NCBI GenBank assembly: GCA_020831635.1
Contig: JAFIGC010000016.1
Span: 1-60,141, forward strand
Direction of reading: 5' to 3'
Length of the DNA stretch: 60,141 bases
Source: Verrucomicrobiota bacterium
GTDB taxonomy: Bacteria > Verrucomicrobiota > Kiritimatiellia > SS1-B-03-39 > UBA6053
The position numbers were made by a program, and so were the translations under genes. Below the pieces are notes generated by a model that was not told where the DNA came from, did not search any database, and was given only the letters and a program-made list of their open reading frames with translations. Positions 4,145-52,568 of this stretch are shown here, in pieces; the first letter of the stretch is position 1, and every line of letters begins with the position of its first letter.

Positions 4145-6019
4145 CTATTCAGGGGGTTCATTGTCAAAGTTGTCAGGATTCATTTCGCTCCACAAGCCCC
4201 GTTCGTCAACTTGCAGCAGGCCCAAATCCCGTTGAAAGGTCAGTTCCGAGATTCGATAACGGACCAGCGCGTCCACCACCGCGTTCTGGGCCTGAAGCAG
4301 GGCCTCGTTGGCTTCGAGCACATCCCGGGTTTCCGCGCGCCCCACCGCCTCGAATGCCTGCGCTTGGCGAACGCGCCGCTCGGCGATATTGAGGGCCTGC
4401 GCCTGAATGCGGTATTGTTCGCGCTGCTGAAGCAAGTCGCGCAACGCGTTCCGAACATCCAATTTGACGTTGTCTTCGAGTTCCTGCGCGTCTCTCACCG
4501 CAGATTCCAGTTGCAAAAGACTGCGGCGAAAGGCGATGCGTTCCGATCGGCGCGACCAGGGTGCATCCAGTTCGGCATCCAGCCCATAAAGCCCATCGCC
4601 GGGATTGAAGCGCGCATCCCCTTGGCTTGCGGAGGAAACGCTGCTGCGGCGTTCGCCAATTCGCCCGCTTCCGGTGACATCCAGCCCGGGACGAAGGGCG
4701 TCCGCGGCGATGGCCACACGGCGTTGCGCGTCCTCCACTTCGTCAAAGGCCACCCGCAAATCCAGCCGATTTTCCAAGGCCAATTCGATGGCCCGTTTCT
4801 CGTCAATTTCAAAACGTCCCCGGGGACCCTGCGCCGCTTCTTGCTCCGTGCCGGGTGCCGTTGTCGCAGGGCCGCCCAGCATGGCTTCGGCATCCTCCAT
4901 CAATCGGTCGAACTCCGCTTCTTCCAATTCGATGCGACTGTCCGTGGGCAAGCCCAAGGTCAGTTTGAAATTGTCCAGTTCGCGCTGATAGTTTTCCCGC
5001 GAGGAAATCAAGCGCTCCCGGGCCCGCAGAAGGTCCTGGCGTCCCTGATCCACCTGAATGCCCGTGACCCGTCCTCTTTCGTGCAGCGCTTCGGTGCGTT
5101 CCACCAGAAGTTCCAGCCGCCCGTAACTGGCCTCATTGTTCGCAATCTCGTCCCGGCGTTGCAGGACGGAAAAATATTCACGGGCCACGCGCACCACATA
5201 ACTTCGTTTGAAGCGCTCAAAGCGATAAAGCGAATACAGCACATCCCGTTCCGCTTGGGTGCGGGATTCGGTCACCACATGCCGACCCGCCCCGCGCAAG
5301 AGCGGGACGGTGATCGACCCATCCGCCACAATCCCCAAGGAACTGCCACCGTCTCCGCTCAAAAGGCGGACCAGGTCCAACACCAGCCGCCCGCTCAACG
5401 TCGCGCCCGTTTCCAGGGTTCTTTGAACCCCCAGCTCTCCCGTGCCCCGTACGCCCGTTTCACTCGATTCGCGATTGCTGCTGAAGGCACTTTCCAACGC
5501 GCCCCGATAGCTGTTGTCGAAGCGGAACCGCTCCAAATCCAATTGAAGCGCGGAACTGAAAAGCGCTTCCTTGCGGGATTGATAATCCCGGGCATTGCCG
5601 GCCCCAATTTGGAGGGCGTCCACCAGGCTGATGCGAACCGGTCCCTCCGTTTCTTCATCTTGAGCCGGAAAAAACGCGGTCGGACGGTTCAGCGGCTCCC
5701 CCGTATCCGGCCAGTGTTCCGGGGGTGTCAGCGCGTTTCCTCCCATGGAGGCCGATCCCGTTTGGGACAAGCCCTGATCCAAGAGAAGACGCTGCCGAAA
5801 GGTCTCGCTTGGACGTTCCACGAAAAACGGTTCCGTCCGCCCCAGGCCCGCTTTCTGGGTTTCCTCGATAATCTCCGCCGCCGAACGATCCGCAGCTTCC
5901 CGGTGCGAGGAGGCGCTTTGGCATCCAAGCAACCCCAAGGACCCGAGAATGATGAAAAGCGAACAACGCGGTACCCTCTGGAAAGGTGAAAAACTGAAAT
6001 GGTGAAGGAAATGGTTCAT
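4145..6019 (-). CDS. TolC-family outer-membrane efflux lipoprotein
   Basis: A 624-residue outer-membrane efflux protein. I start at ATG 6019 rather than 6082 because it gives a clean lipoprotein signal: a hydrophobic stretch, lipobox LLGC, and acceptor Cys at residue 33, followed by QSASS. Two OEP repeats with long coiled helices follow (about 170-400 and 420-615), including the typical stretch RLELLVERTEALHERG. It heads the leftward operon and probably forms the duct for that pump. The divergent right-hand system at 6209-10506 has no duct of its own, so this protein may serve both (inference). The intervening 189 bp must carry both promoters. Confidence 0.92.
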   Translation of the reverse strand: MNHFLHHFSFSPFQRVPRCSLFIILGSLGLLGCQSASSHREAADRSAAEIIEETQKAGLGRTEPFFVERPSETFRQRLLLDQGLSQTGSASMGGNALTPPEHWPDTGEPLNRPTAFFPAQDEETEGPVRISLVDALQIGAGNARDYQSRKEALFSSALQLDLERFRFDNSYRGALESAFSSNRESSETGVRGTGELGVQRTLETGATLSGRLVLDLVRLLSGDGGSSLGIVADGSITVPLLRGAGRHVVTESRTQAERDVLYSLYRFERFKRSYVVRVAREYFSVLQRRDEIANNEASYGRLELLVERTEALHERGRVTGIQVDQGRQDLLRARERLISSRENYQRELDNFKLTLGLPTDSRIELEEAEFDRLMEDAEAMLGGPATTAPGTEQEAAQGPRGRFEIDEKRAIELALENRLDLRVAFDEVEDAQRRVAIAADALRPGLDVTGSGRIGERRSSVSSASQGDARFNPGDGLYGLDAELDAPWSRRSERIAFRRSLLQLESAVRDAQELEDNVKLDVRNALRDLLQQREQYRIQAQALNIAERRVRQAQAFEAVGRAETRDVLEANEALLQAQNAVVDALVRYRISELTFQRDLGLLQVDERGLWSEMNPDNFDNEPPE

Positions 6020-45922: not shown

Positions 45923-47275
45923 TTAGCGCATGCTCCGGGCCATGTGGCGGGCGGCTTTCCCGCCCATGCCGCCCTTGAAGGCCTTGAGTTTCTTGGTCAT
46001 CTTCTGGGTCTGTTTGAACTGCTTGAGCAGATCATTGACATCCTTCACCCGGGTGCCGCTGCCCGCGGCAATGCGCTGCCGGCGTTTGGAATTGATGAGT
46101 TGGGGACGCTGGCGTTCCCGCGGGGTCATGCTCAGGATAATCGCTTCGAAGCGTTTGCTTTGGGTCTGCCCTTGTTCGGCGGCCTTGGCTTTTTGCTCGG
46201 CACTGACATTGGGCATGCCGGGCATCATGTCCATGATTTGGGTCATGGAGCCCAGTTTTTTCATTTGCTGGAGCTGTTTCAGGAAATCCTCGAGGTCCAT
46301 CTTGCCACTGAACATGCGCTTTTCCATGCGCGCCATTTCATCTTCGTCCACCATCGTCTGGGCTTTTTCCACCAAAGAGATCACATCGCCCATGCCCAGA
46401 ATGCGGTTGGCCATGCGGTCGGGATAGAAGGGCTGCAAGTCTTCCTGTTTTTCCCCGGTGCCGATCATGAGAATGGGGCATCCGGTGACCGAACGGACCG
46501 AAAGCGCGGCACCGCCGCGGGCGTCGCCATCCAGTTTGGTGAGAATCAGGCCCGTGAGCCCGCAGCGTTCGTTGAAGGTCTCGGCCACGCTCACGGATTC
46601 CTGACCCATGGCCGCGTCGATTACCAGCACCTTGTTTTTGGCGCCGGTCATTGAAGTCAGATCGGCTACTTCCCGCACCAACTCGTCATCAATCTGCAAA
46701 CGGCCCCCGGTATCGTAAATCACCACGTCATATCCGTGCAACACGGCATGGTTTTTGGCCCGCACCCCCAACGCCTGCACGGTTTCGCCCGGATTCGGCC
46801 CCAGCATATCCACTCCCGCCTGCTCCGCCAGCACCCGCAACTGTTCCACCGCCGCCGGACGACGGATATCGCAACCCACCGCCAGCACCTTTTTGCCCTC
46901 CTCCTTGAAGCGGCGGGACAACTTGCCCGTGGTCGTGGTTTTGCCCACCCCGTGCAAACCCAGCATCACGATCGCCATCGGATGGGTGGAACGGTCGAAA
47001 TCCACCTTTTTTTCGCCCAGCAGGGCCTCCATCTCGTCGTGAACGCGCTTGATGAACTGCTGACCGGGCGAAACGCTGTTGAGCACGTCCTCGCCCATGA
47101 CCTGTTCGCGCACCTTGGCCACGAAATCCTTGACCACCTGGAAATGCACGTCGGCTTCCAGCAGGGCCATGCGCACTTCGCGGAGGGCGTCCTTGACGTT
47201 CTCCTCGGACAGCTTTCCTTGTCCGCGGAGATTTTTAAAAGTTTTTTGAAGGGATTGGGTTAATTGATCAAACAT
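45923..47275 (-). CDS. ffh: Signal recognition particle protein Ffh
   Basis: A 450-residue SRP54 GTPase. N domain (1-90), G domain with P-loop LHGVGKTTTTGKL, DIRRPAAVEQL, G4 region TKLDGDARGGAALS, then the methionine-rich M domain with RRQRIAAGSGT. It binds 4.5S RNA and signal peptides and delivers ribosomes to FtsY. Two deviations occur: the P-loop has His where Gln is usual (GLHG), and the switch motif reads DTGGRL instead of DTAGRL. ATG 47275 is chosen; the upstream 40 residues overlap prmC. The start overlaps the prmC end by 8 bp. Confidence 0.96.
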   Translation of the reverse strand: MFDQLTQSLQKTFKNLRGQGKLSEENVKDALREVRMALLEADVHFQVVKDFVAKVREQVMGEDVLNSVSPGQQFIKRVHDEMEALLGEKKVDFDRSTHPMAIVMLGLHGVGKTTTTGKLSRRFKEEGKKVLAVGCDIRRPAAVEQLRVLAEQAGVDMLGPNPGETVQALGVRAKNHAVLHGYDVVIYDTGGRLQIDDELVREVADLTSMTGAKNKVLVIDAAMGQESVSVAETFNERCGLTGLILTKLDGDARGGAALSVRSVTGCPILMIGTGEKQEDLQPFYPDRMANRILGMGDVISLVEKAQTMVDEDEMARMEKRMFSGKMDLEDFLKQLQQMKKLGSMTQIMDMMPGMPNVSAEQKAKAAEQGQTQSKRFEAIILSMTPRERQRPQLINSKRRQRIAAGSGTRVKDVNDLLKQFKQTQKMTKKLKAFKGGMGGKAARHMARSMR

Positions 47276-48080
47276 GGGCTCTTTCCAAAATCCAAAATCG
47301 GGGTCGTCCGGCCAGATCCGACCGGTTTTCGAGCCGCCATCCGAAACGTTCGGCGGCGGACGCATATACATGCCCTTGAGATTCGCCGGTTTCAAGCACG
47401 ATCTTTCCTTGGTTTTTCAATACCCGCCGCGCCTCGTCCAGCAAACGAACCACCAAATCGGTGCCATCCGTCCCCGAAAACAAGGCCAAGGCGGGCTCGA
47501 AATCGCGAACTTCGCGGTGGAGATCCTCCCGCTCGGACTCGCCAATGTACGGCAGATTGGCCACAAGTACATCCAAAGAACGATCCGCCTCCGCGTCCAG
47601 CAGGTCCCCGGAATGAAAACCCACCTCCACCCCCAGACGCAACGCATTTTCCCGGGCCACCGCCAAAGCCGCCTCCGAAACATCCACCCCCGACACCACG
47701 CATTTCGGACAGGCCCGTTTCAGGGCAATGGCGATACAGCCGCTGCCCGTGCCCACATCCAGCACCTTTTTGCCCGCCGAAACCGCCACCTCCAAAGCCA
47801 ACTGCACCAACTGCTCGGTTTCGGGACGCGGGATCAGCACCTCCGGGGTCACATAAACTTCAAAATCCCAAAAAGGCGCCTTTCCGCAGACATATTGAAC
47901 CGGCTCGCCCAACTTCAACCGCGCCGCCGCCGCCTCGAAAGCCGCCAATTCGACAGGGGAGGGGACGGAATGCAAAGGCAACATCGTCAACGACACCCCC
48001 AAATAATCCGAAAGCCACCAGCGGAGTTTTTCCGCGGGCACTTCGGGGTGTTGGTCAAAAAGGGTTTTCCAGGTTGGCAT
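47268..48080 (-). CDS. prmC: Release factor glutamine methyltransferase
   Basis: A 270-residue SAM-dependent methyltransferase that modifies the Gln of the GGQ motif in release factors. SAM motif VLDVGTGSGCIAIAL (about 107-121) and the substrate motif NLPYIGE, where the family usually has NPPYI, are visible; PRPETEQLV precedes the SAM site as usual. The N-terminal helical domain is present. It lies within the leftward cluster and overlaps ffh by 8 bp. Confidence 0.94.
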   Translation of the reverse strand: MPTWKTLFDQHPEVPAEKLRWWLSDYLGVSLTMLPLHSVPSPVELAAFEAAAARLKLGEPVQYVCGKAPFWDFEVYVTPEVLIPRPETEQLVQLALEVAVSAGKKVLDVGTGSGCIAIALKRACPKCVVSGVDVSEAALAVARENALRLGVEVGFHSGDLLDAEADRSLDVLVANLPYIGESEREDLHREVRDFEPALALFSGTDGTDLVVRLLDEARRVLKNQGKIVLETGESQGHVYASAAERFGWRLENRSDLAGRPRFWILERAHV

Positions 48081-48123
48081 GGGTGTGTCGTATAGAGAGG
48101 ATGGGGTGTTTCAGTGATGGTGG

Positions 48124-48216
48124 TCATGACTTGTTGCGCGCCAGGTGACGCTCCACGTCGTCGGGCGAATGAAACAAGTCCACGACGCCGTGGAGGTCGG
48201 TTTTCGCATGGTTCAT
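48124..48216 (-). CDS. Possible 30-codon ORF coupled to the HEAT-nuclease gene
   Basis: The stop of the HEAT-nuclease gene overlaps an ATG (ATGA at 48213-48216) that opens a frame of 30 codons, MNHAKTDLHGVVDLFHSPDD then VERHLARNKS, ending 43 bp before prmC. Its codons are GC-rich at the third position, like the neighbours. It has no hydrophobic segment. The coupling geometry is that of real operon genes. It could be a small protein, a degraded remnant of a longer one, or chance. No family recognised. Confidence 0.35.
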   Translation of the reverse strand: MNHAKTDLHGVVDLFHSPDDVERHLARNKS

Positions 48217-49079
48217 TTCAGGCGGTCCAATTTGCCGAGAAGGGTCTCCCGGAGTTGGGGTTTGTCGGCGGGGTAGAGGGAGATCAGTTTTTTGCCTTCC
48301 TGCTGGTAGAGCTTTTGCTTTTTCAGCATGCCGATTTTGTAGTCGGCGGTATCCATGCCCCAGTATTCGATGTAGACGTCGTATTCGGGCAGATAGAAGT
48401 CGGGGCGGATGGCATATCCATCTAGAATGCGGAAACGTTCGTCGTAGCGGTAGCGGATGTTTTCGTTGCTCAGGAGTTCGGCGATTTTGCGTTCGCCGTC
48501 GGATTGCACCAAGGTGCCGTCTTTGGCGCGGATGGTTTTCTGGAGTTCGACTTTGGTTTCGAAATTGCGGCGGTCAAGGTAGACTTCGTCGAAGCAGGGA
48601 TCGCAGAACGGGCGCTGGAAGGCCCGCATGGAGCGGGCGTATTCGTCGGGTTCGAGGCGGGCACCGCAGCGTCGGCAGTGGTGCACGGCTTGTTCGTCGC
48701 GAATGCGGAGGGCTTCGCGGATGGTTTTGCCGGCGCGGAGGACGCTGCGCTTGACGTAGTCTTTCTCGTGGGGATTTTTGTAGAGATCGCGGAGGTCTTG
48801 GATGGCGGGTTCGGCATGTGCGCCGAAAGCGGAGAGGGCCTTGGCGGTGTATTGGCGGACTTGCGGGTGGGTGTCTTGGAGGAGGGGGATGAGGGTTTCC
48901 ACGGTTTCTTTTGTGGGGACGATGCCCGCGAGCTTGCCCAGCGCGGACGCGGCGAGGCGGCGCACGCGGGGGGATTCGGACTGCGTGAGTTGGGTCAGTT
49001 CGGCGAAGGCATCCGGGCTTGCGCTTTCGCCGAGGGCGGTGGCGCGGGCGCAGAGTTTGCGTTCGTTTTGGGTGTTCAT
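48213..49079 (-). CDS. HEAT-repeat, zinc-ribbon and PD-(D/E)XK nuclease-like protein
   Basis: A 288-residue protein with three parts. Residues about 10-125 are two to three HEAT repeats (SPRVRRLAASALGKLAGI, HPQVRQYTAKALSAFGA). Residues 134-163 hold a treble-clef-like zinc motif CRRC to CDPC. Residues about 190-285 resemble PD-(D/E)XK nucleases of the kind fused to superfamily 1 helicases: GERKIAELL (Glu), YAIRPDFYLPEY (Asp), DVYIEYWGMD (Glu) and a later KKQKLYQQEGKKLISLY helix-strand. The family function is unknown to me; a DNA- or RNA-processing role is an inference. It lies 38 bp after carB. Confidence 0.75.
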   Translation of the reverse strand: MNTQNERKLCARATALGESASPDAFAELTQLTQSESPRVRRLAASALGKLAGIVPTKETVETLIPLLQDTHPQVRQYTAKALSAFGAHAEPAIQDLRDLYKNPHEKDYVKRSVLRAGKTIREALRIRDEQAVHHCRRCGARLEPDEYARSMRAFQRPFCDPCFDEVYLDRRNFETKVELQKTIRAKDGTLVQSDGERKIAELLSNENIRYRYDERFRILDGYAIRPDFYLPEYDVYIEYWGMDTADYKIGMLKKQKLYQQEGKKLISLYPADKPQLRETLLGKLDRLK

Positions 49080-49117
49080 GCCTTGTTACGCGCTCGGCGA
49101 ACGCTCCACGGCGTCAA

Positions 49118-52100
49118 TCACCGAAACTTGTTGCCGCTGGGGGCGGCGAGGAAGTATTCCTGTAGGGCGGTGACGACCCAGCCGCGCTTGTTGATGTAGT
49201 CGATGGCGGCGATGGTGGGCAAAGCGCCCCATTTGGTGGTGATGATGGGGATGCCGCGAAGGATGGCTTCGGAACGGATTTTGACTTCGTCCTTGCGGGA
49301 GATGGCGCTGCTGGGGGTGTTGATGATGAGCTGCACCTTGCCGTCGGCCATGTAATCCTGGATGTTGGGGGACTGTCCTTCGGCGAGCTTGAACAGACGT
49401 TCGGCGGGCACGCCTTTTTCTTCGAGCACCTGGGCGGTGCCTTCGGTGGCGATGATGCTGAAGCCGATGTCGTGTAGGGTCTTGCCGAGATCGGTCATCC
49501 AGTCTTTGGACTCATCGTTGGCACTGAGGAACACGGTGCCTTCGGTGGGCAACGCCTGTCCGGCGGCAATCTGGGCTTTCCAGAAGGCGGCTTCGAAGAC
49601 GTAGTCCATGCCCATGACTTCGCCGGTGGATTTCATTTCCGGACTGAGTATGGGGTCCACCCCGGCAAATCGGTTGAAGGGGAAGACGGCTTCTTTGACG
49701 GCGTACCAGTGATAATTCGGGGTTCCGAGGGTCGGAAGGTCGAGTTCGCGGAGGGTCCGACCGACGGAAACCTGAGCCGCGAGCTTGGCCAGCGGAATGC
49801 CGGTGGATTTGCTGAGGTAGGGGACGGTGCGGGAGGCGCGGGGGTTGATTTCGATGATGTAAATCTCTCCCTTGTGCACGGCAATCTGGACGTTGAGCAG
49901 CCCCTTGACTTTAAGGGCCAGGGCGATTTTGCCGCAGGAGTCTTTGATGCGGTCGACGATGATCGGCGAGAGCGAATAGGGCGGGGTGCAGCAGGCACTG
50001 TCCCCGGAGTGAATGCCGGCGGCTTCGACGTGCTCCATGACCCCGCCGACATACACGTCCTCGCTGTCGCAGAGCACGTCCACATCGGCTTCGATGGCGT
50101 TGTCGAGGAAACGGTCGAGCAACACGGGCATGCCGGGTCCGGCTTTGAAGGCTTCTTTGACGTAGGGGATGATGTCGGCTTCTTCCCAGGCGATCATCAT
50201 GGCGCGTCCGCCGAGCACGTAGGAGGGACGGATCATGATGGGCAGTCCGATTTTCTTGGCGACTTCGACGGCCTGCTCCACGGTTTTGGCGGTGGCGCTC
50301 TGGGGCTGTTTGAGTCCGAGCTGATCGAGCAGGACCCGGCAACGTTCGCGGTCCTCGGCCTGGTCGATGCTATCGGAGGGGGTGCCGAGCACGGGGACGC
50401 CGGCGGCGGCGAGGGGCACGGAGAGGTTGAGCGGGGTTTGACCGCCCATCTGCACGACCACGCCTTCGGGCTTTTCTTTTTCGTAGATGTTCATGACATC
50501 TTCGAAGGTGAGGGGCTCGAAGTAGAGTTTGTCGGAGGTGTCGTAATCGGTGGAGACGGTTTCGGGGTTGCTGTTGACCATGATGGTCTCGTAGCCCATA
50601 TCGCGCAGGGCCATGACGGTGTGCACGCAGCAGTAGTCGAACTCAATGCCCTGGCCGATGCGGTTGGGTCCGCTGCCGAGAATCATGATCTTGGGCTTGG
50701 TGCTGGGACGGGATTCGTCGGTCTCGCCATAGCTGGAGTAGAAATAGGGGGTGTAGGCTTCGAATTCACCCGCGCAGGTGTCCACCAGGCGGTAGTTGGG
50801 AATGATGCCGAAGGATTTGCGCAGTTCCCGGATTTCGGTGTGGGTTTTGCCGCGCAGGGCCGCGATTTGGGCGTCGGAAAAGCCGTCGTCCTTGGCCTCT
50901 TTCATGAGGTCGGCGTCGAGTTCGGGGGCGTCTTGTATGCGTTTTTCCAGTTCGCAGATCTGGCGCATCATGTCGAGGAACCAAGGGTCGATGTGGGTGC
51001 GTTTGTAGAGTTCCTCGTCGGTCATCCCGTTTTTCATTTCCGTCTTGATGCGGAAAATCCGGTCGGGAGAGGTGGTGGCGAACAGGCCTTCGAGGGGGCG
51101 GTCGGCGACGATTTCCTCGCATTTGAGGTCAAATCCGTCGATGCCCCGCTCCAAACCGCGGAGGGCTTTCTGGAAGGCCTCCTTCATATTGCGTCCGATG
51201 GCCATGGTTTCGCCGACGGATTTCATGCTCACGCCAAGGCGGGCGGGGGTGGAAGTGAATTTTTCGAAGGCGAAGCGGGGGATTTTCACCACGCAGTAGT
51301 CGAGGGTGGGCTCGAAACAGGCGGGGGTTTCGCGGGTGATGTCGTTGGGCAATTCGTCCAGGGTGTAGCCGACCGCGAGTTTGGCCGCGATTTTTGCGAT
51401 GGGGAAGCCGGTGGCCTTGGAGGCGAGGGCGGAACTGCGGGAGACCCGGGGGTTCATTTCAATGACGGTGATGCGTCCGGTTTTGGGATCGACGGCAAAC
51501 TGCACGTTGGAGCCGCCGGTTTCCACGCCGATGGTGCGCATGACCCGGATGGAGGCGTCGCGCATGGCCTGGTATTCGCGGTCGGTCAGGGTCTGGGCGG
51601 GGGCCACGGTGATGCTGTCCCCGGTGTGAATGCCCATGTGATCGAGGTTTTCGATGGCGCAGATGATGACCACGTTGTCCTTGTGGTCGCGCATGACCTC
51701 CATCTCGTATTCTTTCCAGCCGTAGACCGATTCCTCGATGAGCACGGTGGTGTTGAGGCTGGCCTTGAGTCCGGCGGTGGCGACTTCGCGCAGTTCCTCC
51801 GGGTTGTCCGCCGTGCCCCCGCCGGTGCCGCCGAGGGTGAAACTGGGGCGGACGATGACCGGATAGCCGATTTTGTCGGCCGCGGCCATGGCTTCCGCCA
51901 GCGTGTGCACCTGAATGGAGATCAGGGTTTCCACGTTGGCTTCCTTCATGGCCTCTTTGAATGCGTCCCGGTCTTCGGCGCGGTGGATGACCTCGGCGTT
52001 GGCGCCGATCATTTCCACGCCGTATTTTTCCAGAATGCCCATGTTGGCCACGGTGAGGGCGGTATTGAGGGCGGTTTGGCCGCCCAATGTGGGCAAAAGC

Positions 52101-52354
52101 GCGTCGGGACGTTCCTTGGCGATGATTTTTTCCACCGCCTCGGGCGTGATGGGCTCGATGTAGGTGCGGTCCGCGATCTCCGGATCGGTCATGATGGTGG
52201 CCGGATTGCTGTTGATGAGCACGATCTCGTAGCCTTCCTCGCGGAGCGCCTTGCAGGCTTGGGTGCCGGAATAGTCGAATTCGCAGGCTTGGCCGATGAC
52301 AATCGGGCCGGAGCCGATGAGCATGATTTTTTTGATGTCGGTGCGTTTGGGCAT
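49118..52354 (-). CDS. carB: Carbamoyl-phosphate synthase large subunit
   Basis: A 1078-residue enzyme with two homologous ATP-grasp halves, [20 protein letters not shown] opening the first and [20 protein letters not shown] the second, and a C-terminal MGS-like allosteric domain. It makes carbamoyl phosphate for pyrimidines and arginine; the glutaminase subunit CarA is not in the window. ATG 52354 ([10 protein letters not shown]) is chosen over the in-frame ATG at 52378. It heads the leftward cluster running to proA. Confidence 0.97.
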
Positions 52355-52568
52355 TCGGTGGGGTCCTTCGAAAAGCAATTGGGGGAAATTCGGGTGAAAT
52401 CGGGGCCCCTTCCTTTTTCAGATTCGACCGCGTCTTGCAAGTCTCTTTCTTTTCAAGTAGGGGTTCATTTTAAGTGAAACGTGCTTGCCTTCCTCGGCAG
52501 GATGTAGAACATTGGAGAATCCCCGTCCACGGAGACCGGATGGGACGTAAATGCAATTTGGAGATTTC

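Follow-up and report, generated by a model that had tools for sequence, protein, structure and literature searches.

A HEAT-repeat protein with a predicted PD-(D/E)XK nuclease core, encoded by a gene that changes its genomic place, often resides in type I cas operons and may spread like a homing endonuclease gene

A gene, here called HN, was analyzed in a stretch of 60,141 nucleotides from a Verrucomicrobiota bacterium (contig JAFIGC010000016.1; this whole stretch is referred to as the window). In our estimation, chances are about even that HN is a mobile single gene working like a free-standing homing endonuclease gene. Two hallmarks of such genes, namely the existence of occupied as well as empty sites and an inheritance decoupled from that of the neighboring genes, are observed. 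In addition, HN is linked to cas genes beyond chance.

Gene HN and its predicted product

The features of the window dealt with below are the following.

47268..48080, minus strand, prmC, downstream neighbor of HN, outside the element
48128..48162, minus strand, second AB unit, downstream of HN and in the same orientation (covariance model, 9.6e-7 genome-wide)
48173..48196, minus strand, A'B' segment, complementary to both parts of the AB unit that comes next (pseudoknot or palindrome conceivable)
48213..49079, minus strand, HN, coding for a HEAT - CxxC/CxxC - PD-(D/E)XK protein (288 aa, ATG start)
48219..48512, minus strand, putative PD-(D/E)XK core of HN, residues 190-287, with E196, D227, E238 and K254 (conservation, predicted fold, PHROGs)
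48594..48677, minus strand, four-Cys site of HN, C135-x2-C138 ... C159-x2-C162 (invariant in 83 homologues)
48690..49073, minus strand, HEAT-repeat half of HN, residues 3-130 (Pfam HEAT_2 3e-17; helical solenoid in the AlphaFold model)
49080..49115, minus strand, AB unit, 35 nt, abutting the HN start codon on one side and separated from the carB stop by 2 nt on the other (nhmmer and covariance model, 2.3e-6 genome-wide)
49118..52378, minus strand, carB, upstream neighbor of HN, outside the element

HN lies between carB and prmC, with all three genes on one strand, and the open reading frame and its domains agree with the initial sequence-only reading, in which HEAT repeats, a zinc-type cysteine site and a PD-(D/E)XK domain had been described for a single small protein in this setting. 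From Pfam, the HEAT_2 and HEAT models (the latter at 2e-10) match above their cut-offs, while none of the Pfam nuclease models does. Across 83 full-length homologues, no variation is seen at C135, C138, C159, C162, E196, E238, K254 and K263, while 82 retain D227, so the spaced acidic and lysine residues previously ascribed to a nuclease are indeed conserved; what does not hold is a regular E-x-K arrangement, as the third motif reads E238-Y-W240 with tryptophan in place of the usual lysine of (D/E)xK. Judged from the sequence, the four cysteines are presumably zinc-binding, and K254 or K263 would have to substitute for the classical motif lysine.

An AlphaFold2 model built on an alignment of 75 sequences (mean pLDDT 87.4) places a helix at residues 194-205, strands at 217-219, 228-230 and 235-239, a further helix at 245-261 and a strand at 264-268. 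As comparison of the full-length model with the PDB only returned HEAT and alphaRep proteins, the C-terminal 160 residues were also folded separately (pLDDT 85.0). In both models, helices and strands of the core succeed each other as alpha-beta-beta-beta-alpha-beta, the pattern of the PD-(D/E)XK fold, in line with the nuclease core that had been postulated. A Foldseek search of the PDB with residues 129-288 gave the catalytic domain of the homing endonuclease I-Bth0305I as top match (probability 1.00, E 0.013, TM 0.60 relative to the target), with Bax1 and NGO0050 coming next among the nucleases and with nothing below E 0.001. Moreover, the C-terminal part matches PHROGs families labeled as Holliday junction resolvase (6e-9), HNH (4e-8) and homing endonuclease (1e-6). 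The nuclease part is also 28-36% identical to that of plasmid-encoded UvrD-type helicases, corroborating the supposed kinship with helicase-linked nucleases, and one of these matches begins at HN residue 137, so that the Cys region is covered, too. In contrast to these enzymes, HN has no helicase and carries HEAT repeats instead. The recruitment of HN via protein contacts that had been suggested may be a possibility. By its predicted fold, HN is a conserved nuclease-type protein of the PD-(D/E)XK superfamily.

A patchily distributed family

The domain combination had been considered new. However, PADLOC-DB already holds a model of the same architecture, PDLC01150 (HEAT_CxxC_PDDEXK), which covers positions 1-287 of the 288 residues (3e-148). 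The PADLOC record does not give a function, and a literature search on the function of HEAT_CxxC_PDDEXK, its mobility, a leader unit and behavior in a cas slot did not find any of these in the papers covered. Relatives sharing 54-93% identity with HN occur in Kiritimatiellota, Verrucomicrobiota, Lentisphaerota, Thermodesulfobacteriota, Chlamydiota and Myxococcota. Carriage of HN by phages or plasmids was considered and rejected, as phage matches were not found and matches from plasmids and IMG/VR are confined to the nuclease domain.

Within a set of 97 genomes of class relatives, which includes the window genome, HN is present in 35 (E below 1e-60) or, at a looser cut-off, in 44. Decayed copies in the form of fragments or frameshifted genes are found in further genomes as well as at loci L037 and L056. 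The location next to carB and prmC had suggested a core function in this lineage, and HN might accordingly be a core DNA-repair nuclease, a reading to which the nuclease-domain relatives on UvrD helicases and the copies located by polA, recJ and uvrA would also lend themselves. Considering the patchy presence, the multiple and decayed copies and the location of the sister species' copies within cas operons, this is very improbable. The carB/prmC setting is exceptional and no sign of a core function, since the copies of the sister species lie between cas7 and cas4 and only 35 of the 97 genomes possess HN.

Association with type I cas operons

In a collection of species genomes, HN is accompanied by cas genes at 48 of 80 loci. 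According to NCBIfam and Pfam assignments, the operons are of subtypes I-C (Cas8c, Cas7, Cas5c), I-E (Cse1, Cse2, Cas7e, Cas1e) and I-G (Csb2, Cas3g, Cas4g/Cas1g), and the slot separating cas7 from cas4 in type I-C operons is the position most frequently taken among the 80 loci. Positions outside of cas loci are scattered (after polA, by recJ, uvrA, trpA and others). In the 97 genomes, 11 of 40 HN genes have cas1 or cas8c at a distance of no more than 10 kb (p about 3e-10, assuming a chance rate of 2%, which is a generous estimate of our own). At the level of whole genomes, cas1 is found in 22 of the 35 genomes with HN versus 34 of the 62 without (Fisher p=0.52), leaving 13 HN genomes devoid of cas1, and co-occurrence with cas8c does not exceed chance either (Fisher p=0.48).

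Co-evolution was likewise not found. Across 22 type I-C loci with HN in the cas7-cas4 slot, pairwise identities of HN do not correlate with those of cas7, cas8, cas5, cas4 and cas1 (rho between -0.10 and 0.05), while those of cas5, cas7 and cas8 intercorrelate at 0.73-0.82. At loci L021 and L023, for example, HN is 88% identical, compared with 63% for cas7, 37% for cas8 and 50% for cas4. Given this lack of correlation with the surrounding cas genes, HN enters unrelated operons independently.

In type I-C operons of relatives, the cas7-cas4 junction acts as a hotspot where small guest genes are lodged singly. In 17 slots without HN (including L125 and L209), mostly another small gene is present and only a few junctions are tight or empty. 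The guests, assigned to families by eye (L125, L209, L219-L235), comprise S23/IVP-like four-helix-bundle, Bro-N, ORF6N, DUF4160/DUF2442 and Fic-like genes as well as a likely toxin-antitoxin (TA) pair. In operons lacking HN, the identities of cas8 and cas7 correlate with that of cas4 at 0.62 and 0.61, respectively, compared to 0.04 and 0.18 in operons with HN; this decoupling of effector genes from cas4 is only suggestive, as the two operon samples differ in taxonomic breadth, and cas1 is weakly coupled in both. A parallel is seen in phage nuclease genes located at borders of genetic exchange (PMC10448857).

The enrichment in cas operons also fits selection for a role in CRISPR. HN could then be an accessory nuclease that assists type I systems, such as by joining Cas4-Cas1-Cas2 in spacer acquisition or by degrading targets, with its wandering reflecting ordinary horizontal shuffling and copies outside of cas loci acting in trans. 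Such a role would be in line with the 48 loci in operons of three subtypes, the proximity to cas1 or cas8c, the presence of the family in PADLOC and the retained catalytic residues, and type I accessory genes likewise often lie inside cas operons. Unlike these, however, many HN copies occur without CRISPR and HN is not co-inherited with the cas genes tested; moreover, it has neither a fixed partner nor a fixed position, does not co-occur with cas1 and shares its slot with the diverse other guests. An accessory role explains why cas operons are over-represented, yet leaves the missing co-occurrence and co-inheritance unaccounted for; it is the chief alternative and regarded as possible, albeit rather unlikely. 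It can also be partly true alongside a homing-like lifestyle, in the sense of a mobile gene retained where it is useful.

Evidence for mobility

In three sister species of the genus (G001-G003), HN is 87-93% identical to the window copy and lies between cas7 and cas4 of a type I-C operon. The window genome possesses a type I-C operon as well (contig C219), whose cas7-cas4 slot is occupied by a DUF2442-like gene and does not contain HN. With the sisters' copies in the cas slot, the window copy between carB and prmC and the genome's own I-C slot free of HN, the gene must have changed its place within the genus. A simple empty site at the carB-prmC junction was not obtained, since other genes come after carB in G001 and G003 and another gene stands ahead of prmC in G002. 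In none of the sister species that were looked at are carB and prmC adjacent, and synteny breaks on both sides of HN. Given this lack of conservation, insertion and rearrangement are indistinguishable at this spot, and the window copy possibly originates from a rearrangement, the carB-prmC junction being a synteny breakpoint itself. A presumed remnant of the cas4 5' end past the second AB unit (48081-48127) was dismissed, because 658 of 2000 and 185 of 2000 shuffled sequences matched equally well.

A site found both empty and occupied is the trpA-manC junction. In G086, a single nucleotide separates the trpA stop from the manC start, and in G114, G115 and G027 trpA is followed by leader and HN, the latter being broken by a frameshift in G027. 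In G114 and G115, a stretch with a ribosome-binding site and then manC follow after HN, and right-flank homology to the empty site begins about 10-13 nt upstream of the manC start. In a similar way, the cas7-cas4 slot holds HN in some operons and lacks it in others. In a tree of 75 HN members, the genomic context switches 27 times. The sister genes at L025 and L030, both from one genome, are located in a I-E and a I-C operon, respectively, and have about 105-120 nt upstream of HN in common and nothing downstream.

HN occupies operon junctions cleanly, leaving the neighboring genes unbroken. At L097, a 128-bp stretch from the 5' end of cas4 is duplicated with one copy on each side of HN, and at L099 this applies to 85 bp that extend into the beginning of cas3. 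Neither a terminal repeat common to all HN clades nor a target duplication of a fixed kind was detected, and HN is not associated with a self-splicing intron. In other clades, inverted rather than direct repeats surround HN (L070 with arms of about 40 nt, L094, L079, L041 and L019), suggesting that the ends of the element evolve fast or differ in kind.

A structured leader unit beside HN

In one large branch of the family, a 35-nt unit with the consensus GACGCnGTGGA-[5-bp stem]-loop-[stem]-nAACAAGTC, termed AB, precedes the HN start codon at a distance of 0-28 nt and is often repeated past the stop codon. About 26 of the 80 loci, hence only part of the family, have an AB unit within 28 nt upstream, and all clear matches are in sense orientation relative to HN. 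The stem covaries (90.8% paired versus 75.0% in shuffled data, 22 double-change cells, 0 of 500 shuffles as good), while slid controls all gave far lower values. With a covariance model, 22 matches were found in 18 of the 97 genomes, 16 of them flanking HN, including copies not belonging to the seed set (G058, G027, G071). The 6-Mb window genome contains just the two matches listed above. A dispersed REP-like repeat was therefore rejected, given one or two matches per genome that mostly flank HN. An integron attC site, considered because of the arrangement of the arms, is not supported, since the unit ends are not complementary RYYYAAC/GTTRRRY, and a known RNA family was discarded after comparison with Rfam, which gave nothing of note.

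At 14 loci, an upstream segment A'B' is complementary to A and B (87% paired, 27 double-change cells, many G-U), and A'B' plus AB could possibly form an H-type pseudoknot; evidence for the latter is weaker than for the stem, as the loci were partly picked for A'-A complementarity. A nearly identical A'B' module lies downstream of HN in the window and upstream in the sister species G003. At L075, six AB units are present in a locus of 6.5 kb (1639-2837 and 5809-5985) and none elsewhere in the genome; two of them are in tandem, 82 nt apart, and two lie 3 kb from HN. AB-type units without HN were found in G028 (L213, C155:4004), G029 (L115, C188:2136) and G053 (L209, C292:5840-5877), the one in G053 preceding an S23/IVP-like four-helix-bundle gene in the cas7-cas4 slot. 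In another clade, a candidate hairpin lies past the HN stop codon, with sequences too uneven for alignment.

As with HN, short hairpin units are linked to a single gene family in REP/RAYT, HEARO/IscB and ToxIN. Unlike in REP/RAYT, the HN units are not dispersed by the hundreds and stay beside the gene, and the predicted enzyme fold differs from those of HEARO/IscB, ToxIN and RAYT. HN and its leader might nonetheless constitute a protein with a partner RNA, either a toxin with a structured antitoxin RNA similar to ToxIN or an RNA-associated nuclease similar to IscB or TnpB. The covarying, sense-oriented hairpin that is specific to HN, often accompanied by A'B' with its potential for an H-type pseudoknot, would suit such an arrangement, as would a helix 1 permitting G-U pairs. 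Some HN genes, however, have no recognizable unit, complementarity was itself part of the basis for choosing the A'-A helix, an Rfam match is missing and HN is not known to share a fold with ToxN, IscB or TnpB, making a partner RNA of this kind improbable. Decidedly improbable, too, is a new nucleoprotein system in which the leader RNA binds the nuclease and either guides it to operon junctions or keeps it inactive, and in which insertions at cas7-cas4 drive swapping of the effector and adaptation modules in type I CRISPR systems.

Possible mode of spread

Returning to HN as a homing-like gene, we infer a spread driven by its nuclease and a role of the leader along the following lines. The nuclease would cut DNA at or close to a junction that is still empty, with the HEAT repeats and the Cys site possibly recognizing the target or a partner, and repair of the break would then copy HN together with the leader into the cut junction. 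The leader hairpin or pseudoknot may act as RNA, either controlling translation of HN or serving as the bound RNA partner. At cas7-cas4, HN would mark the border where effector and adaptation modules are exchanged, and the window copy would be one that is now situated between carB and prmC.

Free-standing homing endonuclease genes resemble HN in moving as single genes between genes and in their position at borders of exchange (PMC3943268; PMC10448857). EDxHD homing endonucleases have active sites like those of restriction enzymes and contact DNA via multiple domains, and the extended phage-type enzymes may contain zinc fingers (PMC3943268). To this group belongs I-Bth0305I, to which the predicted nuclease fold of HN is matched, and phage homing-endonuclease families of PHROGs point in the same direction. 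In contrast to EDxHD enzymes, HN has HEAT repeats in place of NUMOD-type DNA-binding modules, resides in bacterial operons, is preceded by a structured leader, bears E-Y-W as motif 3 and is only presumed to cut.

Implications

If HN indeed behaves like a homing gene, a supposed defense or CRISPR protein would be better read as the product of a self-spreading nuclease gene that lands in cas operons, which would call for caution when deducing CRISPR functions only from gene neighborhood. The leader with its covarying hairpin would represent a structured element, linked to a nuclease gene, that is missing from current listings, and HN would become a candidate agent behind the module exchange (effector and adaptation) observed where cas7 meets cas4.
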